Shown here: piece by piece, positions 9,289-53,340 of the stretch
Layout of the letters: each line of letters opens with the position of its first letter
Position numbering within the stretch: position 1 is the first letter of the stretch
Source of the DNA: Bacteroidaceae bacterium
Lineage (GTDB): Bacteria > Bacteroidota > Bacteroidia > Bacteroidales > Bacteroidaceae
Reading direction: 5' to 3'
Length of the DNA: 64,000 bases
NCBI GenBank assembly: GCA_017651315.1
Contig: JAGCDE010000005.1
Span: forward strand, 1 to 64,000
Translations under genes and position numbers: made by a program
The notes under the pieces: model-generated
Seen by the model: the letters and a program-made list of their open reading frames with translations, nothing else
Databases searched by the model: none
What the model was told of the DNA's origin: nothing

Positions 9289-9298
9289 CAGCGGACAA

Positions 9299-9373
9299 TG
9301 TGGAAAGATTTGAGAGCCTCCGGGTTCCAGACAGCTTGCAACCACACAAAAAAATGCTAAAAGTCAATCTTTT
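9299..9373 (+). promoter_or_regulatory. SAM-II-like riboswitch with an extended loop, upstream of metK
   Basis: Stem P1 is TGTGG (9299-9303) with CCACA (9342-9346). Directly 5' of the second P1 strand is TTGCAA (9336-9341), and in the tail is GCTAAAA (9356-9362). This is the same order as SAM-II: P1, a GATTT-containing loop, TTGCAA, P1', then GCTAAA. A pseudoknot pairing GAC (9330-9332) with GTC (9363-9365) is in the expected place. The loop carries an extra 5-bp hairpin, GAGCC (9314-9318) with GGTTC (9323-9327) closed by TCCG. The tail TCAATCTTT (9364-9372) could alternatively pair with the 5' segment at 9304-9313. SAM binding would lower metK expression; the distance to the ATG (9445) leaves the switching mechanism open. 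Confidence 0.72.
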
Positions 9374-15205: not shown

Positions 15206-15558
15206 TGCCCTTTCTCAATTTTGTCAATAATGCGCTTCAGGTCATCGACAGAGAGTTTCTCGTTTTTGACGAACCCCATCACCACACTGGCGTAGGAACT
15301 GTCCAAGTATTCGTCTATGAGACCGTGAATGCCGCTGTTGCAGTATTCATGGGCGCTTACCACGGGAAAATACCGGTAGTTGCTCCCAAATGCCTCGCGG
15401 TCAAGGAATCCGTCCACCTGAAGTGTGTGGACCTGTGTGGATAGTGTACTGAAGTTGGGCTGTTGCCCATAACAACCTTGAAGTTCCCTGATGAACATGG
15501 GTCCCTTGTTCCAGAAGAACTCCATTATCTCCTTTTCTTTCTTTGTCAACTGCCTCAT
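15202..15558 (-). CDS. BlaI/MecI-family transcriptional repressor, copy 2
   Basis: A 118-aa winged-helix protein starting MRQLTKKEKEIMEFFW, closely related to copy 1 (both share GPMFIRELQ, FSTLS, LQ.DGF, GSN, YC.SGIH, SSYA.VV and EKLSV). It probably represses the operon with the 1487-aa M56-LRR gene, which it overlaps by 4 bp. A TCTAAAA/TTTTAGA inverted repeat lies 33-68 bp upstream and is a possible operator. Whether the two BlaI copies cross-regulate is unknown. Confidence 0.93.
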   Translation of the reverse strand: MRQLTKKEKEIMEFFWNKGPMFIRELQGCYGQQPNFSTLSTQVHTLQVDGFLDREAFGSNYRYFPVVSAHEYCNSGIHGLIDEYLDSSYASVVMGFVKNEKLSVDDLKRIIDKIEKGQ

Positions 15559-17763: not shown

Positions 17764-18327
17764 TTATTCCAAAAATTTTATAACCTCCTTGTTGCGCGGT
17801 TTGGCATCAGGCTGCTCGTCGGGATAACCCACCGCAATGAGGAACTGGAGCTCCATTCCATCTGGGATGGCCAGTTTTGACATGAGGTCGGCATTTGACT
17901 TGACGGCTCCTACAGGGCCACCCAGACAGACTGTTCCCAGTCCGAGCGAGTGTGCTGCCAGCATCATGTTCTCGCCCATGAGTCCGCAATCCACTCCGGT
18001 ACGTCCGGCCACAAAAATAAGGGCGGGAGCATTATATGTGCCGCGTATTCCGTTAATGAGAGCCTTGTCAGTAGTGATACGGACAGCCCAGTTCTGGGCA
18101 TTCACGGCATTGGGTGCGTTTATTCCGCACTCGGCTATCTGCTGCAGCAGCTCCTTCTCTACGGCGGTATCTTTATATTTACGAATGGAACGGCGTTCCA
18201 TGATGGCGTTGACTACTGCATTTGCATCCTTGCAGCAATCGTCGTTTTCACAGTTCTGAGCCTGTTTGTTTCCACAGGCTGTGAGAATGGTACATGTCAG
18301 TACCAGCGCTAAAGCGATCTTTTTCAT
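17764..18327 (-). CDS. Nitroreductase-fold lipoprotein
   Basis: A 187-aa protein. I chose the ATG at 18327 because it gives a lipoprotein signal peptide (MKKIALALVLTCTILTACG); an upstream ATG at 18378 would mask it. After a cysteine-rich linker (about residues 18-33, CENDDCC) comes a nitroreductase domain. It begins with MERRSIRKYKD, the usual FMN-phosphate region, and has later GLMGENMMLAAHSLGLGTVC. Family members are normally cytoplasmic FMN/NAD(P)H enzymes, so an exported, lipid-anchored form is odd: it would need flavin and reductant outside the cytoplasm. It lies 7 bp downstream of the EamA permease gene and 6 bp before the M49 lipoprotein gene, so it is cotranscribed with them. Confidence 0.88.
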   Translation of the reverse strand: MKKIALALVLTCTILTACGNKQAQNCENDDCCKDANAVVNAIMERRSIRKYKDTAVEKELLQQIAECGINAPNAVNAQNWAVRITTDKALINGIRGTYNAPALIFVAGRTGVDCGLMGENMMLAAHSLGLGTVCLGGPVGAVKSNADLMSKLAIPDGMELQFLIAVGYPDEQPDAKPRNKEVIKFLE

Positions 18328-18334
18328 TTGATTT

Positions 18335-19291
18335 TTATTTTTGGTTGGTAATAATGTCCTCTTTCCGGATTCCTGCAAGTATCACGCCTCCCAGAATCAT
18401 GGCTGATCCGAGTCCGGACACTGTTGTCAGGCTCTCTCCGAGAATCAGCATGGCGCCCAGAAGCGTGAATACAGGGTTCAAATATACATAATTTGTCGAA
18501 GTTACGTTGCCGATTTCAGACATAACTCTGTTCCATACTATAAAACAAAGCTGTGATGCTATGACGGAGAGAAACAGAAGGTTCCCCCATACCTTTACTG
18601 AACTGAACGGTACGTGATGGAGATTGGAACTGTCACTGAACAGCAGTATTGGGATGATGGTGAGTAATCCGTAGAAGAATACTTTTCTGGTAGCAAAAAA
18701 AGTTCCGTAACGTGAGGTCATCTGGCTCATGAACTGACTGTAGAATGCCCAGCACAGTGCTGCCGAAAAAGCCAGCAGGTCACCTTTGGGGGAGATGTTC
18801 AAGGTGTATCCGTCAAAAATAACCAGAAACATTCCGGTCAGTGCCAGCAGCGTACCTGCCACAAGAGGTATTCCTATACGTATGTCTTCAAGCCCCTGGA
18901 CTAAGGATCCCTTGAACAGCTTCCTTATGGCGAGTGTCATGAGAATGGTGAGCAGGGGAGCGGAGCAGACTATGAATGACACGTTACATGCCTGTGTGTT
19001 GGCCAATGCGGAGTTTTCGGTAAGGAAATAAAGCGAGCCGCCGCTTATGCCCATAAGCAGGAACAGGAATTCATGCCTGACCGATGATGAGAAGAGTCTC
19101 CTGTCAGTTCCGCCTCTGACGGCACACATCAGCCATATTCCTGAATAGGCAATGGTAAACCTGATGGCGAAGATCTGTGCCGGAGTGAGGCCGGAGTTGA
19201 TGAGGATCTTGGTGGAGATGAAAGTGACTCCCCATACAGCAGCGGTAAGGAAGGCCAAAATGTGGAACAGCAACTTGCGATTTATCTTCAT
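18335..19291 (-). CDS. EamA/DMT-family permease
   Basis: A 318-aa membrane protein of about ten hydrophobic segments with two EamA halves. The family signature begins FLTAAVWGVTFISTKILI, and the second half has ALCWAFYSQFMSQM and NYVYLNPVFTLLGAMLI. DMT-family proteins move small metabolites, amino acids or sugars/nucleotide precursors; some serve cell-envelope modification. Here it is the last gene directly attached (6-bp gap) to the glycan cluster, so substrate export for envelope assembly is possible. A generic drug/metabolite exporter is equally plausible. Confidence 0.88.
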   Translation of the reverse strand: MKINRKLLFHILAFLTAAVWGVTFISTKILINSGLTPAQIFAIRFTIAYSGIWLMCAVRGGTDRRLFSSSVRHEFLFLLMGISGGSLYFLTENSALANTQACNVSFIVCSAPLLTILMTLAIRKLFKGSLVQGLEDIRIGIPLVAGTLLALTGMFLVIFDGYTLNISPKGDLLAFSAALCWAFYSQFMSQMTSRYGTFFATRKVFFYGLLTIIPILLFSDSSNLHHVPFSSVKVWGNLLFLSVIASQLCFIVWNRVMSEIGNVTSTNYVYLNPVFTLLGAMLILGESLTTVSGLGSAMILGGVILAGIRKEDIITNQK

Positions 19292-19297
19292 TATGAT

Positions 19298-20173
19298 TCA
19301 GTCTGTCTGGTCGGGATGAAACCTGTGTCTGAGTTTTTTCCTGAGTTTGTACGGCCAGCGTGAAATCCTTTGCGGCACCTTGATAATCCACCTTATTATC
19401 TTGTTGACGATGAATGAGAGCCGGTCCGTCAGCCCGAATGACGGTCTTTCCATTCCGCGTATGGAATATGCCTGGTCTATCACTGCGTCAATGCGTTTTT
19501 TCTGGATTCCCCGTTTGGAGTCAAAGAATCTTACCAGCCATGTGGGGGTGGTATAGAATCTGGCGAACCATGTATGAAGGCATAGCGTATGGCCCTCAAG
19601 GTCCTTCAGTATGGTGGTCATACCGTCCTCATGCCGTTGGGAAGGCAGGTAGAGAGTCCTGAAATTATATGCCAGCCAAAGGAAGAAGGGGTAATAGGGT
19701 TCCTGTTCAGTCCTGTCAAAATCATATTTGGTTTCCAGCCTCTCATCGGGGAACTGTTTTATCATCTCTTCCTTGTGCTCTTTATAATTGAAATCCCTGA
19801 TGGCTTTCCGGTCATATCGGGTACGAATGAGCTTGAGGTTGAGGATATTGAAAAACGGATTGGTCACTATAGGGTTGGCGGCACGAGGGCAGAATCCTCC
19901 TCCGTCGGGGCATCCTGCATTGGCGTAGCCGTTCTCCACCACATAGTCTATGAGCCTGAACATGGCATCGGGGTCAGTCAGGAAGGCATCCTCATCAATG
20001 TTGACGGCAATATCGCACTCAGTGTCCTTGAGCATGGTGTGGAAATAGCCGTCGGCACTCTGGTCTGTCAATCGTACTACGGGTACACCAAGCTTGTCAA
20101 ACAGCCCTTTGGAATTGAGATAGAGCCTGAGGTCGAACGAGCGGGTGAATATCTTGATCCTTTCCATTGTCAT
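19298..20173 (-). CDS. Predicted glycosyltransferase of the glycan cluster
   Basis: A 291-aa protein. The N-terminal half reads like a GT-A nucleotide-sugar fold without a textbook GT2 start: IKIFTRSFDLRLYLNSKG, then DIAVNIDEDAFLTDP, where DED is a likely metal/nucleotide motif near residue 58. Later HEDGMTT and a basic C-terminus with a membrane-binding flavour (IIRWIIKVPQRISRWPYKLR) follow. It starts in an ATGA overlap with the GT2 gene, so the two are translationally coupled. I infer sugar transfer in the phosphonate/polyol-phosphate glycan; donor and acceptor cannot be read from sequence. Confidence 0.65.
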   Translation of the reverse strand: MTMERIKIFTRSFDLRLYLNSKGLFDKLGVPVVRLTDQSADGYFHTMLKDTECDIAVNIDEDAFLTDPDAMFRLIDYVVENGYANAGCPDGGGFCPRAANPIVTNPFFNILNLKLIRTRYDRKAIRDFNYKEHKEEMIKQFPDERLETKYDFDRTEQEPYYPFFLWLAYNFRTLYLPSQRHEDGMTTILKDLEGHTLCLHTWFARFYTTPTWLVRFFDSKRGIQKKRIDAVIDQAYSIRGMERPSFGLTDRLSFIVNKIIRWIIKVPQRISRWPYKLRKKLRHRFHPDQTD

Positions 20174-21099
20174 TCAGGTTTTTTGGTTGTGGAGGTTTTT
20201 CCTCTCAGGCCTCTGGTTACGTTGGAACGGAAACGGATAAGCATGTTGCCGCGACCCACCCTGAATGTAATCAGATAGTAAAGCCACAGTATTAAGGTGG
20301 CGCACCATTTCTTGCATTCCGAAAGGAGCCGTTTCCTATATGCCTTGCGGCCGATGCGGAGGGTGCGGGCTCTCTCGCTCTCACCTATGCTGACTGTGAG
20401 CCTGTTGAAATAATCCGGCTCCAGTTTGTATGCCGGGATGCTGTGATAAAGGATGGCATCGGGAAGATAGAGGAACTTCATGTTTTCCCTTTTCATTTTG
20501 GCAAATATGTCTTTCTCTTCGCCGCCGGCCAGACTGTCACCGTTGCGGCCGAGTTCGGTATTGTATAGGCCCACTTTGTCGAACACGCTCCTACGGTAGG
20601 CGGCATTGCCCCCGCCGGGGTAGTTGTCACCGGGGAAGGGGCCGGCCTTCCTGCCGAAATAGAGATAGCCGGTGAGGAGGCGCTTTATGAAATAGGTCAT
20701 CCATGACGGTTCGTCTCCTGTCTCATAGTGCGGAATGATGGGACCGCCTGCCGCATCGGTCTCAGGATGGGAGGCGAACCATTCCGCGTATGTGGTGAGA
20801 TAGCCGGGATTGACGGTGGCGTCATCGTCCACATAGACGAGAATCTCTCCTTGTGATTCGGTTATCCCGCGGTTGCGGGCGTTGGAGAGTCCCTGCCGGG
20901 TCTCTGTGAAGTATCTGAGCCGCACTTCGGGGCAGTCGCTCATGAAACGCTCCACCTCCCCGCGTGTGTTGTCGGTACAGTTGTTGTCAACAAGCACAAT
21001 CTCGTATTTCCGGGCGGGAAACGTCCCGTCGGCAATGCTTCTGAGCACATTGTAGATGTACCTTTCGCGATTGTATGTACAGATTATAACCGATATCAT
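20170..21099 (-). CDS. Family 2 glycosyltransferase
   Basis: A 309-aa GT2 enzyme. It opens with MISVIICTYNRERYIYNVL, then EIVLVDNNCTDNTRGEV. The DXD-type YVDDDATVNPGY (near residue 92) and the GGGNAAYRRSVF plus GGEEKD acceptor motifs follow. It transfers a sugar from a nucleotide donor on the cytoplasmic membrane face during repeat-unit assembly. It overlaps both neighbours by 4 bp (genes at 19298 and 21096), placing it firmly in the cluster. Confidence 0.93.
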   Translation of the reverse strand: MISVIICTYNRERYIYNVLRSIADGTFPARKYEIVLVDNNCTDNTRGEVERFMSDCPEVRLRYFTETRQGLSNARNRGITESQGEILVYVDDDATVNPGYLTTYAEWFASHPETDAAGGPIIPHYETGDEPSWMTYFIKRLLTGYLYFGRKAGPFPGDNYPGGGNAAYRRSVFDKVGLYNTELGRNGDSLAGGEEKDIFAKMKRENMKFLYLPDAILYHSIPAYKLEPDYFNRLTVSIGESERARTLRIGRKAYRKRLLSECKKWCATLILWLYYLITFRVGRGNMLIRFRSNVTRGLRGKTSTTKKPE

Positions 21100-22295
21100 C
21101 TTTTCCGTTTCAGGTTTTTTACGAAATCCAGAATCATTCCCGATGAGTCATACTGTGCAGTCTCTCCCCAGAACCTTTCCAGAATGCGTTTCCTCTCCTC
21201 CTTATCAATAGTGTAATCACCGGACTCTATGACGGAACAGAGGGAGTCAAAGGAATCGACCCGGCATCCGGTCACGTTCTCATCGAACGGATAGAAAAAG
21301 TCACGCTCCCTGACATAGGCATCATAATCATAAAGATATAGGATCACATCCTTCCCTTCCATGAGCAGCCAGTCGTATATGATTGACGAATAGTCGGTAA
21401 TAAGGACATGGACATAGGGAAGTATCGGGTAAATATCCATTATGGGCGATGCCAGCATGATGTTGGTCAGTGAACTGAAGTTCTCCGTAAGCCTGACGTT
21501 GGCATGAGGCTTGAGGATGAGCATGCTGTTGGTGTCAGCCATTATCCGGTTGAGCCTTTCCAGGTCCATGCTCTGGGTGAAGACGGTAAGCTGCGAGTCA
21601 CGGAAGGTAGGCATGTAGATATAAACCTTGTCATAGTCCTTAAGCTTATGTATAAGGGCTGATGTCTGTTCGGGTTCATAATTCTCCACGAATTGCATCC
21701 GGACCTTGTCCGGAGATATCAGGATGCGGTTACGGGGATAACCTGTCTCCAGGCATCTTGACTCAGGAATACGGAATGCAGATGAGAACAGGCGGGTCTG
21801 ATAGGGGGTTGATGTAACCAGCCAGTCCGGTTTACGGAAACATTCAGGATGGGTGAAAACATCGTATTTGTTCTTTTTTTTGAAGCGGTCAGCCAGAGGT
21901 CCTGATGTGGCATTGTATTCTATACGCTTCAGTCCTACTCCGTGCCATAGGTTTATACATACCGCCCTGCCCGACAGACAGAACATAATGTCTGAAGTGT
22001 AGGAGTTGAAAAACCAGTACCTGGCTGTAAGAGCATGCCATACTCCCCGCGGGTCCAATACCCAGTATGCTTTTAGTCCGTAACTGCGAACCTTCCTTAC
22101 CGTGGCTTTCCGGGTGGAGAGCCAGATGTAACTTATGTTACTGTCACCATGTTCAACAGCATACAGGAACAGATATTTTGCGTTATCTGCAAAGGAACCC
22201 CGATAGCTTCCGAATACGTATTTCCTGCTGCTGCGCGGAAACAGGAATGAAAACGGATAGATAAGATAACAGATTATGTAAGCCAGTAGTTTCAT
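21096..22295 (-). CDS. CDP-glycerol glycerophosphotransferase (TagF/TarF-type)
   Basis: A 399-aa protein of the teichoic-acid polyol-phosphotransferase family. Family signatures are NLWHGVGLKRIEY (near residue 115) and the C-terminal LITDYSSIIYDWLL (near residue 315). The N-terminal hydrophobic stretch should hold it at the membrane. Such enzymes move glycerol-phosphate or ribitol-phosphate from a CDP donor to a lipid-linked sugar. The gene overlaps the CDP-ribitol synthase-like fusion by 4 bp, which favours ribitol phosphate as the transferred unit (inference). Some Gram-negative capsules contain such polyol phosphates. Confidence 0.92.
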   Translation of the reverse strand: MKLLAYIICYLIYPFSFLFPRSSRKYVFGSYRGSFADNAKYLFLYAVEHGDSNISYIWLSTRKATVRKVRSYGLKAYWVLDPRGVWHALTARYWFFNSYTSDIMFCLSGRAVCINLWHGVGLKRIEYNATSGPLADRFKKKNKYDVFTHPECFRKPDWLVTSTPYQTRLFSSAFRIPESRCLETGYPRNRILISPDKVRMQFVENYEPEQTSALIHKLKDYDKVYIYMPTFRDSQLTVFTQSMDLERLNRIMADTNSMLILKPHANVRLTENFSSLTNIMLASPIMDIYPILPYVHVLITDYSSIIYDWLLMEGKDVILYLYDYDAYVRERDFFYPFDENVTGCRVDSFDSLCSVIESGDYTIDKEERKRILERFWGETAQYDSSGMILDFVKNLKRKR

Positions 22296-23671
22296 AGCGC
22301 CTGTCTTTTGATCCTGACATCAATAACCTGTCCTGTAAGGTCCGACAACAGGGTGCGGAGGGAGGCTTCGGCCACACTGTGCGCATCGAGAAGAGTTCCT
22401 TCAGGCTCAGTTCCGAAATTCCTGATACGCATGGGTGTCTTGGTGCGTTCCGGATTCATGACATTAACCCGGATGGCATCAGGTTCCCATTCCTGTGCAA
22501 TGGCCTGCATGAAATTCACCACTGCAGCTTTGGTTGATGAATAGATGCTGTAAAGGGCTCTGCCTCTTGTATAGGAGCTGGATGTGTAAAGCAACAGCTG
22601 TCCTTTGGTTTCTCTGAGGTATTGAAAGCTTTCAATGGCGATGTTCACCATTCCGTCATAGTTGGTACGTATCATGGTGTCAAGTATGTCATGATTCATC
22701 GTAACGAGAGGTTCGCGGATGAGAATGGCTGCACTGTTCACTACATAGTTGATTCTGCCCTCTTTATCTCTGACTTCCCGGAGGCATTCAGAAACGGCAT
22801 TACGGTCAGCGATGTCAGTTCCGGTGGTGCTGCGGGAGAAAGAGTATGCCGATGCGCCGTATTTCCGGGCCATTGAAACGACTTCAGCTCCGATTCCGGA
22901 ATTGCCACCGAATACGACTAACACCTTTCCTTCAAGTGCGGAGAAATCAGCCTGGTCACTGATGGTTGTAGAACGCAACTGAAACAGCTTGTCAAGCAGA
23001 TATGAATCCTCCTTGTATGTCAGTTTCATGTTGGATTCCTCACCAGGGACGACGCAGACCTTTTCATCCGGAAGATATTTTACAACGGTTCCGCAGTCAT
23101 CGGACGATGTGAAATCCGGGTCTTTCAGGGCAATTTCATAGGCTTTTTGTATCACCTTTTGCCTGAAGGCCTGGGGAGTCTGGCCACGACGCAGATAACG
23201 TCTGTCAGGAATACTGTTTATGACCTTGCCTTCACCGTCCACCTGTATGATGGTATCAGTGGCCGGAACCGCCACATCAACGGCGTTGTATGTGTTGAGA
23301 GCATCAATTATACCGTCTATTATTGAGTTGCTGATCAAAGGGCGCACGGCATCATGGAAGATAAGTGAGCAGTCCGGCTGGTCAGAGTAGGCGTTTATGG
23401 CGGCCAGACTGGATTCGTATCTTTCTTTACCTCCTGACAGAATCTTCTTGACTTTTTTCCATTTGTTGCGAATCACCATAATTTCAATTTCCCGGTTGTA
23501 TGAAGGATTTGTCACTATGGCAATCTCATCAATCTTCCTGTGGTTGTCAAAGACACTGACAGTATGTTCTATTACTGTCTTGCCGGCCACCTTGAAAAAT
23601 TGTTTGGGAGTTCCGAGTCCTGAACGGGAGCCTACTCCTCCTGCCAATATTACAGCTATGTTCTTACTCAT
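22292..23671 (-). CDS. Bifunctional TarI/IspD-type cytidylyltransferase - SDR reductase (CDP-ribitol synthase-like)
   Basis: 459 aa from the ATG at 23671 (MSKNIAVILAGG); an upstream in-frame start at 23746 would run far into licD. Residues about 4-230 are an IspD/TarI cytidylyltransferase (LAGGVGSRSGLGTPKQF, GGKERYESS, QTPQAFR). Residues about 245-455 are a short-chain dehydrogenase (GGNSGIG 255-261; catalytic Y377 and K381 in YSSTK). This matches the Haemophilus Bcs1/Acs1 plan, which reduces ribulose-5-phosphate and makes CDP-ribitol. The neighbouring TagF-like transferase fits that product. An alternative is that the reductase acts on another aldehyde, such as phosphonoacetaldehyde from the neighbouring decarboxylase. 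The N-domain is about half identical by eye to the stand-alone protein at 58132..58836. Confidence 0.9.
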   Translation of the reverse strand: MSKNIAVILAGGVGSRSGLGTPKQFFKVAGKTVIEHTVSVFDNHRKIDEIAIVTNPSYNREIEIMVIRNKWKKVKKILSGGKERYESSLAAINAYSDQPDCSLIFHDAVRPLISNSIIDGIIDALNTYNAVDVAVPATDTIIQVDGEGKVINSIPDRRYLRRGQTPQAFRQKVIQKAYEIALKDPDFTSSDDCGTVVKYLPDEKVCVVPGEESNMKLTYKEDSYLLDKLFQLRSTTISDQADFSALEGKVLVVFGGNSGIGAEVVSMARKYGASAYSFSRSTTGTDIADRNAVSECLREVRDKEGRINYVVNSAAILIREPLVTMNHDILDTMIRTNYDGMVNIAIESFQYLRETKGQLLLYTSSSYTRGRALYSIYSSTKAAVVNFMQAIAQEWEPDAIRVNVMNPERTKTPMRIRNFGTEPEGTLLDAHSVAEASLRTLLSDLTGQVIDVRIKRQAL

Positions 23672-23672
23672 A

Positions 23673-24494
23673 TCATTTGCTTTGGATATTGATAACTTGT
23701 ATGGAATGGTTCGCGATTCTTTCAGGCAGTTCTGTCCAGTTTCCATAGATTTTCCTCAGATAATGGTCGGAATCATGCGGAGCTGAAAACTTATGCCCTT
23801 CAAAAACAGTCTCTTTCAACGGGAAAATATCCCTGACTTCCTTACTGATATAATAAATGCCGGTCCCGAAGTCATCAATGAGCTGTCTCTTTTTAAAGAC
23901 TGCTCCCCATAGACGGGCTGTGAGGACTGTAAGTTGGGCAAAAGGATAAAGCAGTGTCCCGGCGACATGTTTTATCCATCCGTCATTTACCAGCTTGTAA
24001 CGGCGTCTGAAACAACGGCCGAAGAAGACATCAATTCTCTTTGAAACGGAGGGGGATCCGTTCACACTGAAGAAGATGTCAAGCCAGATGTTCTCTTCTT
24101 TTTCCGTGGTTATCCCATGTGGCCCTGTACTTCCGGCGGCTCTGGATACTGTTATGGTCCTGTTGGCAACCCTTGACCACCGTCGGGCGTATCCGGAATC
24201 GGAGTCCAGATAAACGAATGGTTCCTTCAGCTCTTCCTTTATTGCCTTCTCCAGCCTTTTCTTGTCTTTCTTAAGGACACTGACATCAAGGTCATCATCC
24301 CAGGGAATGAAGCCTCCATGTCTTTCCGCCCCTAAAAGAGTACCGTAATCCAACCAGTAGTCAATATGATGCTTCCTGCAAATACGGTCGAATTCAATCA
24401 GTATGTCAAGCAGATTCAGCTGGACAGTTCTCAGCATAGAACCGTCAGGATTGTATTCGCTTCGGAGTTTATTGTGTAGTTTCTCGTCAATCAT
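23673..24494 (-). CDS. LicD-family phosphotransferase
   Basis: A 273-aa LicD protein: LNLLDILIEFDRICRKHHID, then DYGTLLGAERHGG, then the acidic WDDDLD at about 65-70 that likely binds metal. LicD enzymes transfer phosphocholine or other phospho-substituents from a CDP donor onto glycans. Since this cluster encodes PEP mutase and two cytidylyltransferase domains, a CMP-phosphonate is a reasonable donor, with LicD adding the phosphonate to the glycan (inference). Only 1 bp separates its stop from the ATG of the next gene, and it overlaps the flippase gene by 8 bp. Confidence 0.9.
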   Translation of the reverse strand: MIDEKLHNKLRSEYNPDGSMLRTVQLNLLDILIEFDRICRKHHIDYWLDYGTLLGAERHGGFIPWDDDLDVSVLKKDKKRLEKAIKEELKEPFVYLDSDSGYARRWSRVANRTITVSRAAGSTGPHGITTEKEENIWLDIFFSVNGSPSVSKRIDVFFGRCFRRRYKLVNDGWIKHVAGTLLYPFAQLTVLTARLWGAVFKKRQLIDDFGTGIYYISKEVRDIFPLKETVFEGHKFSAPHDSDHYLRKIYGNWTELPERIANHSIQVINIQSK

Positions 24495-26061
24495 AACTCT
24501 TTCTCATTTTCATTTTTTTGAGGAATGCAGTTATCACCTCCAGAATATGCTTACGTTCAGTTTTAGTTATCCCTATTATGAAAACGGTAATACATAACAC
24601 TATCATGCTGGATCCTATTACGGAAAGGGATCTTAGCCAGATGTGCTGATGAAGAAACAGATGCGCTGTATGGCGGATAATCAGGGATATACTCACGCTG
24701 ATTGCCGCAACGCCGGCAATAGGGACAAAAACGCCTTTTATGTACGCAGCCGGATCCAGTCCGACCTGTTTCCTGACAAACAGCAGTCGCAGGACCTGGG
24801 TGAAAACGGTAACCGTTATGGACACTATGAATACCGATGAAGGAGCCCAATTCAGATATCGGATTCCGAGATATGACAGCGGAAGGATGGTCAGAAGCGT
24901 GCATCCGATGACAATCTGATAGTTCCGGACATTACCTGTAGCTTGAATGGACGTAGCAAGCGGATTGGTAAAACAGTTCACAAGACCTTCAATCAGCATG
25001 AGTCTGGTAAGGATAAACGCATAACCGGACACATTTCGGCCTTTCAGCCAGACTGGCAGGATAAAATCCGTTTCCAGTAAAATGGGAAGGGCAAGCAGGA
25101 ACAGGAGGTAAAAGGAGAAGCGCGTGCTCTGGCATATAAGCTTATGCATGTCTTTCATTTCTCCTGCAGCGAATGATTTGTATAGTTGAGGCCTGACAGC
25201 CGTAAAGAAATTGTCATTCAGTTGGGCGATGGTACTGTAAACCTTATATCCAATGCCTCTGGCTGCGCTTACTATGACTCCGAAAGAGGCGTTGAGAAGC
25301 AGGTTGATACCCTGGCTTTTCAGAACGTTGGCAGATGCTCCTATCATATTCCAGCCTGCGTACGAGAATATTTCCCGGAACTTATCCTTGTCTATCATGA
25401 ACCTGAAGCGGCATTCCCTGTAGAATAGTCTGCAGTAAAGCCAGTAGAACAGATACATCACAATCTGTGTGCCGGACATCAGTCCTGCATAAAGGACCAG
25501 TCTTGCGTTTTTGTCATCGGCAGTGTGTGAAATGAACAATGCTATACCTAAGGCCGCAAAGGCCTCAAACAGGCTCAGGTATGCGAATATTTTCATTTTC
25601 TCCCTTGCTATAACCATTCCCATGTACGGGACTCTGAGAATCTGCATGGAGAATGAGAGGATACTGAACTGGAAAACCCATTTTGCAGCTTCAATCTCTC
25701 CGTTGACATCCATCTTGTTCACCAGATACCAGCTTCCTGCGGTTTCAGACAGCAGAAGAATGATTGCTGTAAGGATGAAGAATACGGTCATGCTGATGCA
25801 GAATACCTTCCTGAGCTCTTCCATGCCATTACGTTCCATCTCATAGGAGTAGAACCTCTGGCATGCGGACGACATGGTCGTACTGATGAATGAGACCATA
25901 GTGACAATTGCACCTACAGCATCGTAAATGCCGAAATGTGTCTGTCCCAAAGAGTCAATGATAACTCTTGAGGTATACAGACCCACAAAAGTCATGATCA
26001 CCATCCTGAAATACAGCAGAAGGGTGTTGACGGCAATTCTTTTCTGGTTTACTGTAGTCAT
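24487..26061 (-). CDS. Polysaccharide flippase (Wzx/MATE-like)
   Basis: A 524-aa integral membrane protein with about 12-14 hydrophobic segments and the polysaccharide-biosynthesis opening YFRMVIMTFVGLYTSRVII. It has DAVGAIVTMVSFISTTMSSA near residue 50. It should flip undecaprenyl-linked repeat units to the periplasm. Overlap with licD (8 bp) and a 19-bp gap to the decarboxylase gene upstream place it in the cluster. I see no Wzy polymerase or initiating sugar-phosphate transferase in the window, so the glycan may be short, or those steps are encoded elsewhere. Confidence 0.93.
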   Translation of the reverse strand: MTTVNQKRIAVNTLLLYFRMVIMTFVGLYTSRVIIDSLGQTHFGIYDAVGAIVTMVSFISTTMSSACQRFYSYEMERNGMEELRKVFCISMTVFFILTAIILLLSETAGSWYLVNKMDVNGEIEAAKWVFQFSILSFSMQILRVPYMGMVIAREKMKIFAYLSLFEAFAALGIALFISHTADDKNARLVLYAGLMSGTQIVMYLFYWLYCRLFYRECRFRFMIDKDKFREIFSYAGWNMIGASANVLKSQGINLLLNASFGVIVSAARGIGYKVYSTIAQLNDNFFTAVRPQLYKSFAAGEMKDMHKLICQSTRFSFYLLFLLALPILLETDFILPVWLKGRNVSGYAFILTRLMLIEGLVNCFTNPLATSIQATGNVRNYQIVIGCTLLTILPLSYLGIRYLNWAPSSVFIVSITVTVFTQVLRLLFVRKQVGLDPAAYIKGVFVPIAGVAAISVSISLIIRHTAHLFLHQHIWLRSLSVIGSSMIVLCITVFIIGITKTERKHILEVITAFLKKMKMRKSYD

Positions 26062-26080
26062 GTCTCAGGATAATATCAGT

Positions 26081-27217
26081 TCATTCTGCCAGAAAACCCA
26101 TTAAGGCCTGTTTGTTTTCAATTGGAGTGGTAGTTGGCCGTCCCAGTTCTTTGCGATGACCCTTTCTCACCTTGATTTCAAGGAATACGGCACCTTGAGG
26201 GGAGACACTGTTGCTGCTGATGACGGGCAATAACCGTAAAAGCTCCTCTTTTGTGGATACGCTGTAGGTGGCGGCATATCCCACACCTCTGGCAACAGCG
26301 GTCAGATCCACTTTGAGCCCTACGGTGGGTTGGCCTCCAACCGAGTCATGTGCACCGTTGTTGAAAATCACGTGAATGTAGTTGGCCGGCTTTTTGCTGG
26401 CCACAATGGCCATTGACCCCATATGCATTATTGTGGCACCGTCACCGTCAAAGCACCAAATCCGACGGTCTGTTTTCTCCAATGCTATCCCCAAGGCAAT
26501 CTGGCTGGCATGACCCATGGAGCCCACAGTGAGGAAATCCCTCTCATGTCCTTGTCCCCAAGCTGTGCGCGCCTCGAACAGTTCACGGCTGATCATGCCC
26601 GTGGTGCTTACAATGACATCCCTGGACCCTATGGCCGATGCAACAGCCTGAATGGCTTCCTCGCGTGTCATGGCGAGGTCATTTGTCTCAGCTTTCTGTA
26701 GTTTGTATTCGTCAAAAGTGTCCTTTTCTATAACGAGAGCATAGACTTGATTGTTTTCCAAAGCCTTGGCGGCTTGTTTTATCTGGATTGCCGCCAACTC
26801 CTCTTCCTTGGATAACACTTCATGGCTTATACCCATGACATCAAGCAGTCCGGTTGTTATCTTTCCCTGTTTGATATGCTGGGGTTCATCCTTTACTCCG
26901 GGACGTCCGCGCCAGCCTATGAGCAACAGGACCGGTATGTCATAGACTTCCCTGTCTGTAAGAGAGGCAAGCGGGTTGATGGCATTGCCCTCGCCGGAGT
27001 TTTGCATATAGACGACACCAGCCCTTCCTGTTGCAAGATGATAGCCTGCGGCCAATCCTATGGCTGCCCCCTCATTGGCAGCTATGATGTTATGCCTCTC
27101 ATCAGAATGGTCTGTGATATAGGCACAAAGATTCTTGAGCAGGCTGTCCGGTACTCCGGCAAAGAAATCCATGCCGCAGCTTTTCAATGTCTCAAAAAAG
27201 AAAGAAGGCCTTAACAT
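26081..27217 (-). CDS. Phosphonopyruvate decarboxylase
   Basis: A 378-aa TPP enzyme that turns phosphonopyruvate into phosphonoacetaldehyde, the step that makes phosphonate synthesis irreversible. The N-terminal substrate part has FFAGVPDSLLKNLC and ANEGAAIGLAAGYHLATG. The TPP-binding part has CFDGDGATIMHMGSM near residue 245, followed by FNNGAHDSVGGQPT. Length and motifs fit Ppd/AepY. It is 5 bp from the radical SAM gene and follows PEP mutase by one gene. No aminotransferase or alcohol dehydrogenase normally acting after it is found in the cluster. Confidence 0.95.
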   Translation of the reverse strand: MLRPSFFFETLKSCGMDFFAGVPDSLLKNLCAYITDHSDERHNIIAANEGAAIGLAAGYHLATGRAGVVYMQNSGEGNAINPLASLTDREVYDIPVLLLIGWRGRPGVKDEPQHIKQGKITTGLLDVMGISHEVLSKEEELAAIQIKQAAKALENNQVYALVIEKDTFDEYKLQKAETNDLAMTREEAIQAVASAIGSRDVIVSTTGMISRELFEARTAWGQGHERDFLTVGSMGHASQIALGIALEKTDRRIWCFDGDGATIMHMGSMAIVASKKPANYIHVIFNNGAHDSVGGQPTVGLKVDLTAVARGVGYAATYSVSTKEELLRLLPVISSNSVSPQGAVFLEIKVRKGHRKELGRPTTTPIENKQALMGFLAE

Positions 27218-27222
27218 TGTAA

Positions 27223-28683
27223 TTACTTTTCGTTACAGTTCCTACAATCGTTATCCCTTACAGCTTTCTTGAACTGCGTGGATGAAACCCCCTTGGTATA
27301 GTCAGGCTCAACGACGCTGCCACCCCATTCGGCAAGGATGTCTATCGCTTTCTGGCGTACTTGGGCAAGAGGTCCCTCGCGCCAATCCTTACCGTGAACC
27401 ATGATGTCGGGTTTGAAGCGACGAAGATTCTTCTCGTAATCCTTTGTGTCCTGCTTGACCACATAAGTGACTCCCTTAAGGTTCTCTACGACTGTCTTGC
27501 GTTGTTCATAGTTCATATATGGTTCAGGTTTGTAGGATCGTATTGCTTCATCGCTGAACAATCCCACCATTACCCGACCCAGGGCACTCGCTTTTTTGAT
27601 TATGTTGATGTGTCCGGGATGTATGATATCAGCCGCCATGGGCACATATATCAGTTTGGAATAGGGAAATCCTGCGGCTTTGATACGCATACGTACCTTA
27701 CAGTCATTGAAAATGTCATCGTTAGGGGTTGCATACTCGGGCATCAAAGGCTCTGCCGGAGCATCGTTGTGGTGAACGCAACAGTCACAGATAGTGCCGT
27801 CAAGCACGTCCTCGATAAAGCCTTTGCGTAACTCTTTCATCTTTTCACCGTACCAGGCCTCTTTCAGGCTGACCTTGTTCAGGTCACCTACTATCAGCAT
27901 ATTCTCGTAATCGGCATTTTCAACGGAGAGATAACCTTCACAGGTTACGCAGATGGCGTCAAACGGCAGGTTACAGCGGCGATATGTCTCGTGATCACAG
28001 TCGCACTTGAGAAGATGCTCTATTTCAGGCATATAGCCACCCTGATTATACACAGTCTTGAATACAATCTGGTCAACTATGTCTCCAAACAGCTCCTGAT
28101 ACATACCTTTCATCTGTTCTGTGAATCTGGTAAGGATACCTGTGACATAGATTTTATATTTCCTGCCTGTTTCGTCCCTATACTGACGGACATATTTGAG
28201 GTGCTCTACCACCTGGTCAAAGTGGTCATGTCCGTGGATAAACTCATACATCTTGCGCTCAGGTGCATTGATTGAGAACTTAATGCTGTCAAGTCCGGCA
28301 TCAATGACCGCACGTATCTTTTCCGGGGTGGCAAGTGAACCGTTGGAGGTCAGATAGGTGTATTCATAACCTATCTCCTTGGCAAGTCTGATGTATTGGG
28401 GCAGTTCCTTTACGAGAAAAGGTTCGCCTGTTGCATAAAAGCCCACTTCACGCGTACCGAGTTCATAGGCTTGGCGCAGTGCGCTTTCTACCATTTCCGG
28501 TTTCATCTTTCCCACCTTGCGTTTCATTTTCTGATGGGCGCAGAAAAGACACTCATGATTACATGCGTTGGATAACTCCAGAAGGAAATTAGTGTATGGG
28601 AACGGAGGATTCAGCGAATACAGCTCAGAACGGTCAGCTTTCTTAAGTCTTACTCTTTCTTGTAAATCCATATCTTTAGTCAT
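27223..28683 (-). CDS. Radical SAM/SPASM protein fused to a TagD-like cytidylyltransferase
   Basis: A 486-aa two-domain protein. Residues 30-310: radical SAM core with C41, C45 and C48 (CxxxCxxC), GFYATGEPFL, and SPASM-like cysteines (C227, C229, C237, C245, C248, C299, C301, C302) for extra iron-sulfur clusters. Residues 343-470: nucleotidyltransferase of the HxGH type (HPGH 355-358; MVHGKDWREG), as in TagD/GCT. The C-domain resembles the N-domain of the adjacent PEP mutase fusion. I infer a phosphonate or polyol activated with CMP and altered by a radical step; the substrate is unknown. The ATG could also be at 28671. The gene overlaps the PEP mutase gene by 8 bp. Confidence 0.88.
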   Translation of the reverse strand: MTKDMDLQERVRLKKADRSELYSLNPPFPYTNFLLELSNACNHECLFCAHQKMKRKVGKMKPEMVESALRQAYELGTREVGFYATGEPFLVKELPQYIRLAKEIGYEYTYLTSNGSLATPEKIRAVIDAGLDSIKFSINAPERKMYEFIHGHDHFDQVVEHLKYVRQYRDETGRKYKIYVTGILTRFTEQMKGMYQELFGDIVDQIVFKTVYNQGGYMPEIEHLLKCDCDHETYRRCNLPFDAICVTCEGYLSVENADYENMLIVGDLNKVSLKEAWYGEKMKELRKGFIEDVLDGTICDCCVHHNDAPAEPLMPEYATPNDDIFNDCKVRMRIKAAGFPYSKLIYVPMAADIIHPGHINIIKKASALGRVMVGLFSDEAIRSYKPEPYMNYEQRKTVVENLKGVTYVVKQDTKDYEKNLRRFKPDIMVHGKDWREGPLAQVRQKAIDILAEWGGSVVEPDYTKGVSSTQFKKAVRDNDCRNCNEK

Positions 28684-29971
28684 TAGGAATTAATGTTATG
28701 ATATCTTTTATGCTCATGCACATATCGTCACACTCTTTGGCACGATGATTCTCAAGGATGGTCCTTGCGGCTTTCTGCATGGCAGGGAAACCTGTACGAG
28801 TGAGTTGGTTGGCGTAAATTACAATGTTCACTCCCCTGCTTCTGAATTCATCCTCAGTCACTGTGTTGAAGGATGTGGGAACCACTACAACCGGAGTCAG
28901 GGTGTCCTTTTCACGGAACTTCTCCACAAAAGTGAATATTTCAGTCGGATCTTTCTTTCTGCTATGGATCATTATGGCATCCGCACCAGCCTTTACAAAT
29001 GCGAAGGCACGCGTAAGGGCGTCGTCCATACCCTTTTCCAGAATAAGGCTTTCAATACGGGCGCATATCATGAAATCCCTGGTCTTCTGGGCACGCTTAC
29101 CGGCAGCTATCTTGGCACAGAAATTCTCTATGCTGTCCTGGTTCTGCTTCACTTCAGTACCGAAAAGGGAGTTTTTCTTGAGTCCGGTCTTGTCCTCAAT
29201 AATGACCATGCTTACTCCCATACGTTCAAGAGACTTGACAGTATATACGAAATGTTCTGTAAGTCCTCCTGTATCCCCGTCAAATATTATTGGTTTGGTG
29301 GTAACTTCCATTATGTCATCAATAGTACGGAAACGGGATGTCATATCAACCAGCTCTATATCAGGTTTACCCTTGGCGGTGGAATCACAGAGGGAACTGA
29401 TCCACATGGCATCGAACTGGTATGTCTTTCCGTCCTGGACGACTGTGGTGTTCTCAACAATTAGTCCGGTTATGCCGCTGTGGGCTTCCATCGCTGTAAT
29501 AAGTCCTTTCATTCCCAGTATCTTCTTGAGTCTTCCCCGTCGCATGTCCGGCATTGAAAGCTGCATACGGGCATGGGCCTCCATCTTGTCATATTCCTCA
29601 TTGACAGAGTAGGGGAACTCCTTCAATTCCCCGCCATACTCAGACAACAACCTTATTACTTCCTCACGGATAGGCTGTTGTAAGCCTGTACGCCAGTCAT
29701 CTCCATGCACAATTATGTCCGGATGATATGTCTTTATGACAGAACGGTAGGACATTTCATCCTGTTCAATAACATGAGCCACCCCTTTAAGTGACGCTGC
29801 TATTATCATTCTTTCCTTACATGACAGGAGCGGATAGCGTTTGTAACTTGCCACAACCTGGTCGCTCAGCACGCCAACGGTAAGTTCCCCTAAACTGGCG
29901 GCGTTTTCAATCATCCTTATATGTCCACCGTGTATCACATCGGTGCTGAGACTCATGAATACCTTTTTCAT
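28676..29971 (-). CDS. Cytidylyltransferase - phosphoenolpyruvate mutase fusion
   Basis: A 431-aa fusion. Residues 1-125: TagD-like cytidylyltransferase (HGGH 14-17, IVHGDDWRTG near 88-97). Residues about 145-420: PEP mutase/isocitrate-lyase fold with FDGDTGG (230-236) and the mutase signature EDKTGLKKNS (259-268). PEP mutase makes phosphonopyruvate, the entry to almost all natural phosphonates; the fused domain suggests that the product is later activated as a CMP-phosphonate. This is the first gene of the phosphonate block; a 45-bp gap separates it from the 43-aa protein, with no clear promoter, so it may be expressed by readthrough from the folK operon. Confidence 0.93.
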   Translation of the reverse strand: MKKVFMSLSTDVIHGGHIRMIENAASLGELTVGVLSDQVVASYKRYPLLSCKERMIIAASLKGVAHVIEQDEMSYRSVIKTYHPDIIVHGDDWRTGLQQPIREEVIRLLSEYGGELKEFPYSVNEEYDKMEAHARMQLSMPDMRRGRLKKILGMKGLITAMEAHSGITGLIVENTTVVQDGKTYQFDAMWISSLCDSTAKGKPDIELVDMTSRFRTIDDIMEVTTKPIIFDGDTGGLTEHFVYTVKSLERMGVSMVIIEDKTGLKKNSLFGTEVKQNQDSIENFCAKIAAGKRAQKTRDFMICARIESLILEKGMDDALTRAFAFVKAGADAIMIHSRKKDPTEIFTFVEKFREKDTLTPVVVVPTSFNTVTEDEFRSRGVNIVIYANQLTRTGFPAMQKAARTILENHRAKECDDMCMSIKDIITLIPND

Positions 29972-30155: not shown

Positions 30156-30620
30156 TTATCTTATCTCTTCAAGCATATCCCTCACAGTCTTGTGAAGGAC
30201 GGGATGTTCAAGCTCCGGGGCAATCTCCGAGAGGGGTTCCAGCACGAACAGGCGCTTGTGCATCAGAGGGTGCGGAATCTTCAGGCCGGGAAGTTCAATC
30301 ACTTGGTTGTCATAGAAAATCAGATCGATGTCAATCAGCCGGTCGGAATAGATTGAGCCGTGACTTTTACCTGTCCTGCCCATTTCCCTCTCTATTGCCT
30401 GTGCGGCCTTAAGGGCATCAACGGGATTCAGGTCTGTTGTGACTTGAAGGGCCTGGTTGAGGAATGCGTTGGGGCTCTGAAATCCCCATGGCCCGGTTTC
30501 AATAACCTCTGACACCGCCTGTACTGCACCTATCCTTTGGCCGATAAGTGTTATGGCGGTCTTGAGATTGGATCGCCGGTCACCCAGGTTCGTTCCTATG
30601 GAAAGGTACAGGTTTGACAT
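30156..30620 (-). CDS. folK: 2-amino-4-hydroxy-6-hydroxymethyldihydropteridine pyrophosphokinase
   Basis: 154 aa from the ATG at 30620 (MSNLYLSIGTNLGDRRSNL); longer in-frame starts overlap queA and do not look like FolK. Motifs: ETGPWGFQSPNAFLNQA, then DRLIDIDLIFYD (metal-binding DxD) and IPHPLMHKRLFVLEPL. It transfers pyrophosphate from ATP to the pterin in folate synthesis. It lies 5 bp downstream of queA in the conserved Bacteroidales uppP-truB-queA-folK order. Confidence 0.96.
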   Translation of the reverse strand: MSNLYLSIGTNLGDRRSNLKTAITLIGQRIGAVQAVSEVIETGPWGFQSPNAFLNQALQVTTDLNPVDALKAAQAIEREMGRTGKSHGSIYSDRLIDIDLIFYDNQVIELPGLKIPHPLMHKRLFVLEPLSEIAPELEHPVLHKTVRDMLEEIR

Positions 30621-30625
30621 GGTTG

Positions 30626-31678
30626 TCAGTCTATTATGAGCATTGCATCGCCGTAGCAGCCGAACCTGTATCCCTCCTTGACAGCCAGATGGTAGGCTCC
30701 CATGATCAGGTCGTATCCGCCGTATGCGCATGTAAGCATGAGCTGAATGGATTCAGGCAGCTGGAAGTTGCTTATCATGCTGTCGGCCACGTTGAAGGTG
30801 TAGGGCGGGAAGATGAACTTGTTGGTCCATCCCTCGAACGGCTTGATAAGGTGATCGGTACCTACAACGGTCTCGAAGGCGCGGTTTACAGTGTTGCCTA
30901 CTGCGCATATCTTGTGGCCTGAAAGCTTTGCCTTGTTGACAATTTCGGTGCACTCTTCGGTAACGAATATCTGCTCGGACTCCATCTTGTGCTTGGTGAG
31001 GTCCTCCACGTCAATGTCACGGAAATTGCCCAGTCCGCAGTGCATGGTGATGAATGCGCGCTCTACACCCTTGATCTCCATGCGTTTCATCAGTTCACGG
31101 CTGAAATGGAGTCCTGCGGTAGGAGCGGTTACGGCACCCTCGTTAGTGGCGAAGATGGTCTGGAAACGGGCTTCGTCCATCGGATCGACCTTACGTTTCA
31201 GATAGGTCGGGATAGGCGATTCGCCCAGTGCGTAGAGAGCTTTCTTGAACTCGTCATGCGGGCCGTCGTAGAGGAAACGCAGCACACGTCCGCGGGAGGT
31301 GGTGTTGTCGATAACCTCGGCCACCATGGAGTTGTCCTCACCGAAATAGAGTTTGTTGCCGATACGTATCTTGCGTGCCGGATCCACCTGAACGTCCCAG
31401 AGCAGATTCTCCTCACGCAGTTCCCGGAGAAGGAACACCTCTATGCTCGCGCCGGTCTTCTCCTTGTTGCCGAAGAGGCGTGCGGGAAATACACGTGTGT
31501 CATTGAATACGAACACATCGTTCTCTTCGAAATAGTTGAGGATATCCTTGAAGATGACGTGTTCAATCTCGCCTGTCTTCTTGTGGACCACCATCAGCCT
31601 GGATTCGTCACGGTTCTCAGTGGGAAACTGGGCTATCCTCTCCTCGGGGAGTTTGAATTTGAATTGTGAAAGTTTCAT
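30626..31678 (-). CDS. queA: S-adenosylmethionine:tRNA ribosyltransferase-isomerase
   Basis: A 350-aa enzyme that adds the epoxycyclopentanediol moiety from SAM to preQ1-tRNA in queuosine synthesis. Signatures: [20 protein letters not shown] at the N-terminus, [12 protein letters not shown] near residue 57, [13 protein letters not shown] near 180, and C-terminal [12 protein letters not shown]. The length is typical. An 80-bp gap to truB has two half copies of the dispersed repeat but no clear promoter. Confidence 0.97.
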
Positions 31679-52746: not shown

Positions 52747-52752
52747 AATGAT

Positions 52753-53340
52753 ATGAGAAACATAAAGGAGGAGATAGCACAGTCAATAGCCACCAAGCAG
52801 GCTATTCTTGACAACGAGGTCCTGCTGGCTCAGATAGCCCAGGCTGCCGAGATACTGACACGTGCCTATAAGGAAGGTCACAGTGCGCTGCTGGCCGGTA
52901 ACGGAGGGTCTGCTGCCGATGCCCAGCATCTGGCAGGCGAACTTGTGAACAAGTTCTATTTTGACCGTCCCGGAATCCCTGCCCACTCCCTTAGCACCGA
53001 TACTTCGGTCATGACTGCCATAGGCAATGACATAGGATTCAAGTATATGTTCGCCCGTCAGGTTCAGGCCCAGGGGGTGAGAGGTGACGTCTTTATAGGA
53101 ATCTCCACTTCAGGCAAGTCAGAGAACATACTTGAAGCACTGAGGGTATGCCGCGAAAAGGGTATAGAATCCATCGGCCTTACGGGAATAACCCCTTCGC
53201 CTATGGATTCCATGTGTGACCTTTGCATCAAGGTGCCTTCGGACTGCACCCCGCGCATCCAGGAGTCACATATTCTCATTGGCCACATAATATGCGCAAT
53301 CGTTGAGGAGAACCTGTTCGGAAAGAGAATAGATGTTTGA
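52753..53340 (+). CDS. gmhA: Sedoheptulose-7-phosphate isomerase
   Basis: A 195-aa SIS-domain protein (LLAGNGGSAADAQHLAGELV near residue 50, GISTSGKSENI near 117). It turns sedoheptulose-7-phosphate into D-glycero-D-manno-heptose-7-phosphate, the substrate of the preceding kinase. It starts 6 bp after hddA and overlaps hddC by 8 bp. Length and motifs are typical of GmhA. Confidence 0.95.
   Translation: MRNIKEEIAQSIATKQAILDNEVLLAQIAQAAEILTRAYKEGHSALLAGNGGSAADAQHLAGELVNKFYFDRPGIPAHSLSTDTSVMTAIGNDIGFKYMFARQVQAQGVRGDVFIGISTSGKSENILEALRVCREKGIESIGLTGITPSPMDSMCDLCIKVPSDCTPRIQESHILIGHIICAIVEENLFGKRIDV

Follow-up and report, generated by a model that had tools for sequence, protein, structure and literature searches.

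A phosphonate cluster with a radical-SAM–cytidylyltransferase fusion

The stretch of Bacteroidaceae DNA analyzed here, hereafter the window (all 64,000 nt, from contig JAGCDE010000005.1), carries a cluster of ten open reading frames (ORFs) that follow one another head to tail on the minus strand, between 29971 and 18335 (Table 1). At its head, genes for a phosphoenolpyruvate (PEP) mutase (PEPM) and a phosphonopyruvate decarboxylase flank a gene whose product joins a radical S-adenosylmethionine (SAM) domain to a Fom1-type cytidylyltransferase (CyT). The best reading of the sequences is that this fusion represents a third phosphonate-tailoring module, beside an aminotransferase module and an alcohol-dehydrogenase module. 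Sister genomes use one chromosomal site for three alternative tailoring modules, one of which links a radical-SAM enzyme physically to the activating enzyme. Both core enzymes score above curated cut-offs, as their assignment in the original prediction would have it: the PEP mutase reaches 402 bits to TIGR02320 (cut-off 320) and contains the motif EDKTGLKKNS, which fits EDKxxxxxNS, while the decarboxylase reaches 510 bits to TIGR03297 (cut-off 312). That prediction had also proposed that a carbon–phosphorus (C-P) substituent is meant for a surface glycan. The PEP mutase and decarboxylase, together with the LicD, TagF-like, flippase-like and glycosyltransferase genes, argue for this proposal, and by gene content a phosphonate-to-surface-glycan pathway is well supported. 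We consider it fairly probable that the cluster as a whole forms a phosphonoglycan locus equipped with a radical-SAM tailoring module, in which a CMP-activated C2 phosphonate would be altered before its transfer. According to Rice et al. 2019, the greater part of the phosphonate capacity of bacteria probably serves to decorate the cell surface, by tailoring steps that are still enigmatic (PMC6697681).

Two Fom1-type cytidylyltransferase domains

By sequence, the cluster offers two Fom1-type domains as nucleotidyltransferase for the phosphonate, and the motif-intact one is located on the radical-SAM protein. For the two CYTIDYLYLTRANSFERASES, the nearest PDB entry is the same, 5x3d (3.4e-35 for the PEP-mutase-fused domain and 2.5e-45 for the radical-SAM-linked domain), far ahead of TagD-type entries. 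The entry is named PEP phosphomutase in the PDB, and we take it to be the Fom1 cytidylyltransferase domain. Both domains had been labeled TagD-type in the original prediction; the much stronger match to 5x3d overturns that label and leads us to reject either domain as a glycerol-phosphate TagD.

The radical-SAM-linked domain of the window has both HPGH and GVSST, and HPGH with [GN][VI]SS[ST] is found in 30 of the 30 readable copies among the 31 public loci described below (L034 is unreadable). The domain fused to the window PEP mutase retains HxGH and has lost the GISST motif, which is involved in CTP handling in the cytidylyltransferase fold. The same loss is seen in 27 of 29 loci readable for this domain (L023 and L034 are unreadable), the two others being L016 and L020. 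The PEP-mutase-fused cytidylyltransferase is probably inactive. Because its motifs are intact and it resembles Fom1, the domain on the radical-SAM protein would be the working cytidylyltransferase.

The radical-SAM half weakly resembles BtrN

Pfam detects three domains in the fusion protein: radical SAM, a weak SPASM (24.4 bits, cut-off 21.5) and cytidylyltransferase. The radical-SAM half harbors the motif CNHECLFC and four further invariant cysteines. When 23 of the 32 available radical-SAM domains, the window copy included, were aligned, all seven cysteines (C41, C45 and C48, and C227, C237, C299 and C302) were invariant in 23 of 23, a pattern that fits a SAM cluster plus one auxiliary cluster. 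Comparison of the alignment profile with solved structures placed BtrN first (8.5e-10, 41 bits), followed by an unnamed radical-SAM entry, tetraether synthase, cytosylglucuronate decarboxylase and viperin. The role of BtrN, alcohol dehydrogenation, and its cluster ligands are the background to this match. BtrN, the best solved match, shares with the fusion the CxxxCxxC motif and further cysteines ending in CxxC; unlike BtrN, the fusion has an attached cytidylyltransferase, and one BtrN cysteine is without a counterpart at the same place in the alignment. Among the best 25 of the 46 NCBIfam models that match the protein, only a general domain model, TIGR00125, reaches its cut-off, and no radical-SAM model comes near its own. 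In addition, Pfam finds no B12-binding domain in the fusion, which argues against a Fom3-type methylase.

The fusion recurs with PEP mutase in several phyla

The original prediction had singled out the radical-SAM fusion as noteworthy, a point that is supported. A pattern scan, sensitive only to close relatives, of a collection in which each of 84,980 species is represented by one genome recovered the fusion or a split form in 31 loci at 64-99% identity (among them UBA1192 as L004 and, as L034, a fragment at a contig edge). The carriers include Bacteroidales, Clostridia, Selenomonadaceae, Synergistota, Gastranaerophilales, Treponema and a gamma-proteobacterium, and six phyla are represented in the tree. 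In seven loci (L024, L025, L026, L027, L029, L030 and L033) the radical-SAM and cytidylyltransferase parts are neighboring genes; the split form is present in Agathobaculum desmolans ATCC 43058 and the fusion in Eubacterium sp. MSJ-21.

The module travels closely with PEP mutase. A CyT-PEPM gene lies on the same contig in 29 of the 31 loci and a decarboxylase gene in 28; L023 and L034 lack both, and L025, a 3.2-kb contig, lacks the decarboxylase as well. At the genome level, PEP mutase exceeds its cut-off in 31 of 32 genomes (the 31 plus G000, the genome of the window) vs. none of 14 controls, six of which give a match below cut-off.

In a radical-SAM tree of 30 rows, built by a quick method with two distant paralogs as outgroup, starred branches divide Synergistota and Melainabacteria at least two times and Bacillota at least five times. 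Transfer of the radical-SAM module between phyla is likely, with the caveat that many records are metagenome-assembled genomes (MAGs) and that such splits are no proof. Carriage on plasmids or phages was rejected, there being no match at 1e-30 in either collection. Closer to the window, only its own genome carries the module in an even sample of 393 genomes of its order, and three of 37 genomes of its genus do. Oxygen-independent chemistry is plausible because gut or rumen is named as the source of many carrier records.

One chromosomal site, three modules

PEP mutase scores above cut-off in 17 of the 37 same-genus genomes. In 15 of these 17 (window included) queA-folK either adjoins the cassette or lies a few genes away from it; L047 and L049 are the exceptions. 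Three arrangements are found. Ten loci encode a MobA-CyT-PEPM triple fusion with a decarboxylase and an iron-containing alcohol dehydrogenase (Fe-ADH, in 10 of 10); the domain make-up of the triple fusion was Pfam-checked in one locus, L051. Four encode a CyT-PEPM of another clade. Three of the four also have a free MobA-like gene, together with a class V aminotransferase for which the context suggests a role in making 2-aminoethylphosphonate (AEP); the fourth, L047, has neither gene in the 8.6 kb read. The radical-SAM fusion is found in the remaining three, the window, UBA1192 (G046) and G040, whose loci, as far as they were read, lack both Fe-ADH and the class V aminotransferase. G053 shares its gene order with the window (PEPM, decarboxylase, flippase-like, LicD, TagF 71-73%, GT2 78%, EamA 69%) and has Fe-ADH where the window has the radical-SAM fusion.

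The Fom1-type domain lacks GISST in all ten triple fusions, and in the aminotransferase group the second motif histidine of this domain is leucine in four of four. Loci in which the PEP-mutase-fused domain looks damaged thus usually have a second CTP transferase available; the one exception seen is L047. Rice et al. 2019 describe fusions of PEP mutase to a MobA-like domain, to a Fom1-type domain or to both, as well as clusters with a second nucleotidyltransferase (PMC6697681).

Trees of PEPM (44 rows) and of the decarboxylase (42 rows) were built by a quick method with long branches flagged, and the near-copies L004 and L057 were left out. The triple fusions form one clade (99), placed among the PEP mutases of radical-SAM loci, and the aminotransferase-type proteins form another (100). 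The window decarboxylase falls in a set of 17 rows (99) made up of same-genus decarboxylases of all types plus L016, and this set stands apart from 25 foreign decarboxylases (99). The window locus looks like a mosaic, its decarboxylase native to the genus and its radical-SAM fusion imported.

The step after phosphonoacetaldehyde

The likeliest precursor for the module is 2-hydroxyethylphosphonate (HEP), a suggestion that comes from just four of the 31 loci (L014, L015, L017 and L031), in which Fe-ADH lies inside the radical-SAM core. The best NCBIfam model for these core dehydrogenases is TIGR03405 (Phn_Fe-ADH, PsrA), and FomC is the iron alcohol dehydrogenase of the Fom pathway. HEP as substrate is uncertain because an alcohol dehydrogenase is missing from most cores; the window cluster itself has no Fe-ADH by Pfam. 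The radical-SAM half might instead replace the alcohol dehydrogenase, its substrate then being phosphonoacetaldehyde or the CMP ester of that compound in place of HEP. The fusion does stand, within the genus, where alcohol-dehydrogenase cassettes have a MobA domain and Fe-ADH, and Fe-ADH occurs in none of the three radical-SAM loci (stretch read) vs. ten of ten loci of the triple-fusion type. However, the four cores that combine Fe-ADH with the radical-SAM gene speak against such a replacement, and dehydrogenases encoded elsewhere could serve, so that we regard it as unlikely.

An aminotransferase route was also considered, in which the glycan of the window genome would be of the ordinary AEP kind, like polysaccharide B of Bacteroides fragilis, with an aminotransferase encoded on another contig (C56) and a radical-SAM protein unrelated to phosphonate. 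The C56 gene does lie beside genes for Glyphos_transf, LicD and a TagD-like protein (Table 1), and its product matches the AEP aminotransferase model TIGR03301, at 115 bits vs. a cut-off of 361. Yet the C56 aminotransferase is present at 70% identity or more in nine of the 37 same-genus genomes, four of which have no PEP-mutase hit (one of these four is only 62% complete); since it is not tied to PEP mutase, the C56 mini-cluster was rejected as an AEP branch. Across the wider set, TIGR03301 finds some match in every one of the 32 genomes and 14 controls, and exceeds its cut-off in only two of the 32, G008 and G019. In both, the aminotransferase lies near another PEP mutase copy, on a contig different from the radical-SAM one (the extra copy in G019 is a contig-edge fragment and scores below cut-off). 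Searches by tblastn at 1e-6, with two same-genus aminotransferases as queries, found no match in the 31 loci; an aminotransferase beside the Treponema locus L023 was set aside as NifS-like. With the near-strict co-occurrence of the radical-SAM fusion and PEP mutase also against it, an ordinary AEP glycan is quite improbable.

The TarI-SDR gene is an optional addition

The original prediction had further joined phosphonate and polyol-phosphate chemistry in one surface glycan. Such a glycan would contain both a C-P substituent and ribitol or glycerol phosphate, with the TarI-SDR (short-chain dehydrogenase) fusion making CDP-ribitol, TagF polymerizing or capping, and LicD adding the phosphonate. 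The TarI-SDR and TagF genes are adjacent in the window, the nearest PDB entry to the IspD-like half of the fusion is a ribitol-5-phosphate cytidylyltransferase (4jis), and the TagF-like protein is nearest TarL, TagF and Bcs3. A separate IspD-like gene at 58132-58836 means, moreover, that TarI-SDR is not the sole IspD-like gene of the window. The predicted domains, cytidylyltransferase and SDR, are both there, but the TarI identity is unproven, with the best NCBIfam model, IspD, at 171 bits (cut-off 181) and the D-ribitol-5-phosphate model at 142 bits (cut-off 166). The IspD-like half is also 52% identical to the product of the window's separate IspD-like gene. Each of the 17 same-genus genomes with PEP mutase has a gene of this kind, at 50-57% identity to the first half of TarI-SDR. 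The wall-teichoic-acid models all fall below cut-off (TarF 102/550, TarL 81/1000 and TarB 38/500 bits).

As a conserved unit the combination did not hold. A full TarI-SDR is present in four of the 17 PEP-mutase genomes and is tied neither to TagF nor to the radical-SAM module: besides G000 (the window) and G046 (UBA1192), it occurs in G057, ~7 kb downstream of the PEP mutase of an aminotransferase-type cassette, and in G033, which has the same cassette group and carries TarI-SDR and PEP mutase on different contigs. It was not found in G040, the third radical-SAM genome of the genus, and G053 has TagF and no TarI-SDR; these genomes are drafts, and single absences are weak. Among the 31 public loci, in the stretches available, the full fusion is found only in L004 (UBA1192). 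Pfam detects Glyphos_transf in L007, L009, L016, L023 and L026, and in L032 it is fused to LicD directly before PEP mutase; none of these six has a TarI-SDR match. (Of eight proteins, encoded in seven loci, that BLAST grouped together as Glyphos_transf candidates, Pfam supports those from L007, L009, L023 and L026 and one from L016, and the L014 member is YidC.) Given Glyphos_transf in six radical-SAM loci without TarI-SDR, the TagF-like proteins may move the phosphonate itself, or polyol phosphate. CDP-ribitol synthesis by the TarI-SDR fusion is possible, LicD is a candidate transferase of the CMP-activated phosphonate, and a single glycan bearing both substituents is a reading that we hold to be doubtful.

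Proposed pathway and comparison with known systems

The phosphonoglycan reading with a radical-SAM tailoring step implies the following route. PEP mutase would make phosphonopyruvate, which the decarboxylase would turn into phosphonoacetaldehyde. A C2 phosphonate, most likely HEP, would arise from the latter, and the cytidylyltransferase half of the fusion would turn it into a CMP ester. The radical-SAM half, with one auxiliary iron-sulfur cluster, would then alter either the carbon skeleton of this CMP-phosphonate or its oxidation state, in a reaction that needs no oxygen; our first, weakly supported guess is an oxidation like that of BtrN. LicD or the TagF-like protein would pass the phosphorus-linked product on from CMP to a sugar destined for export, and TarI-SDR would be an optional add-on that may supply polyol phosphate. 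Within the genus, the module occupies a PEP-mutase site used in sister genomes by an alcohol-dehydrogenase or aminotransferase module. That the radical-SAM step acts on the CMP ester is suggested by analogy with Fom3, a radical-SAM enzyme that acts on HEP-CMP (PMC8158854).

More tentatively, we propose that a single polypeptide, or its split form, CMP-activates a C2 phosphonate and then remodels it by oxygen-independent radical chemistry into a building block undescribed in surface glycans or flagellin. As part of the same tentative proposal, the module would have spread horizontally in gut anaerobes as a counterpart to the O2-dependent oxygenases that act on phosphonates in aerobes. The tailoring step is directly testable, because it involves one protein, defined candidate substrates and named carrier strains.

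Several observations weigh against this pathway. The similarity to BtrN is weak (~41 bits). HxGH persists in 25 of 29 PEP-mutase-fused domains (it is altered in L012, L020, L024 and L032), and the domain in L016 retains GISST, with part of the motif left in L020. Of the 31 cores, 27 have no alcohol dehydrogenase, and neither do the three radical-SAM loci of the genus. The in-core dehydrogenases score 110-138 bits against the PsrA cut-off of 424, and TIGR03405 is above cut-off in none of the 32 genomes. Sub-threshold relatives of TIGR03301 reach 245 bits in G020 (at a contig edge), 208 in G002, 184 in G005 and 179 in G003, with PEP mutase on a different contig in the last three. G040 (L057/L021) also carries a separate MobA-like gene (28%), a Treponema MAG carries the fusion without a PEP mutase hit, and many loci come from MAGs.

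Among the closest known systems, the phosphonyl-tailoring (Pnt) clusters of T. denticola, O. uli and A. rimae and the AEP capsule of Bacteroides fragilis share with the window a PEP mutase with nucleotidyltransferases both fused to it and close by, a decarboxylase, and a LicD-type transferase or glycan genes (PMC6697681). Unlike Pnt-type clusters, the window cluster has no AEP aminotransferase and no free MobA/LicC-type PntC, and its intact cytidylyltransferase is of the Fom1 type and is fused to a radical-SAM enzyme. The Streptomyces fosfomycin Fom1/Fom3 system likewise has a cytidylyltransferase fused to PEP mutase, a radical-SAM step and a CMP-activated phosphonate (PMC8158854). In contrast to it, the window protein has no B12-binding domain, the intact cytidylyltransferase is on the radical-SAM protein, and the neighboring genes indicate a glycan. 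For the polyol-phosphate genes, the comparison is with Haemophilus Bcs and wall-teichoic-acid genes, where a cytidylyltransferase-SDR fusion (the domain order of Bcs1) likewise adjoins a TagF-like protein; unlike those genes, the window genes do not reach Tar cut-offs, and the fusion is an optional gene within the genus that closely resembles the genome's own IspD-like gene. We found no description of a radical-SAM/cytidylyltransferase fusion in phosphonate synthesis in the open-access literature, subscription papers being mostly outside this scope. The word "radical" is absent from the main text, as available, of Rice et al. 2019 (PMC6697681).

Cluster layout

The ORF list of the window confirms the ten touching minus-strand genes of the original prediction. 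Neighboring ORFs overlap by at most 8 bases or are separated by at most 19, if TarI-SDR starts at its second in-frame ATG; the likely start is ~23671 and not 23746, and the UBA1192 copy is 459 aa long. The G+C content of the cluster is 47.7% vs. 50.0% in the remaining window. A flippase and two glycosyltransferases had been predicted, of which the GT2 gene stands by family match. The flippase-like protein and the other supposed glycosyltransferase have no match in Pfam, NCBIfam or the PDB, and their names are possible assignments drawn only from eight hydrophobic segments and a DxD motif, respectively.

Table 1. Features of the cluster, its flanks and the separate C56 gene set (window positions unless a locus is named)
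Feature	Position	Strand	Basis or remark
CyT-PEPM: Fom1-type cytidylyltransferase (~29597-29971) + PEP mutase (~28682-29530)	28676..29971	-	Pfam, NCBIfam, PDB, motifs
rSAM-CyT: radical SAM (~27754-28587) + intact Fom1-type cytidylyltransferase (~27250-27660)	27223..28683	-	
Phosphonopyruvate decarboxylase	26081..27217	-	NCBIfam, tree
Flippase-like membrane protein	24487..26061	-	8 hydrophobic segments only
LicD-family phosphotransferase	23673..24494	-	Pfam; motif WDDDLD
IspD/TarI-like cytidylyltransferase + SDR fusion (TarI-SDR)	22292..23746	-	optional accessory gene
TagF-like Glyphos_transf protein	21096..22295	-	nearest solved structures TarL, TagF, Bcs3
GT2 glycosyltransferase	20170..21099	-	Pfam/NCBIfam
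Protein with DxD motif, possible glycosyltransferase	19298..20173	-	no family match
EamA-family permease	18335..19291	-	Pfam/NCBIfam
folK and queA	30156..31678	-	judged by eye; flank of cassette site
Nitroreductase-like ORF	17764-18378		judged by eye; other flank of cluster
Class V aminotransferase, Glyphos_transf, LicD, TagD-like cytidylyltransferase (four-gene set, G000:C56)	L035:7659-11173		

Additional observations

Near the radical-SAM core, flagellin homologs are encoded in four loci (L011, L022, L027 and L019), three of which also have an adenylylsulfate-kinase-like gene and a gene for a large unassigned protein. This suggests flagellin as one possible target of phosphonate modification. 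AEP has been found on the flagellin glycan of C. difficile, a species negative in a pepM survey (PMC8861647). An adenylylsulfate-kinase-like gene is on the contig in ten of the 31 loci (L010-L013, L022, L024 and L027-L030), directly before PEP mutase in about half of these ten. A second, distant radical-SAM gene (23-28% identity) lies among glycan genes at L019:2148-3164 and L029:8923-9933. Beside the PEP-mutase core, a YidC (60KD_IMP) domain is fused to Glyphos_transf at L007:6574-8652 and to a weak sulfatase-like domain at L026:4622-7333.

Elsewhere in the window, a SAM-II riboswitch scores above its gathering threshold at 9294-9370. The ORF at 10742-15558, which adjoins a BlaI-like gene, encodes a 1487-aa protein that, judged by eye, begins like a BlaR1-type M56 peptidase and continues with many leucine-rich-type repeats. 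Also by eye, the three adjacent genes at 51718-54040 look like a set of the heptose-activation kind, made up of a GHMP sugar kinase, a GmhA-type isomerase and a sugar nucleotidyltransferase.

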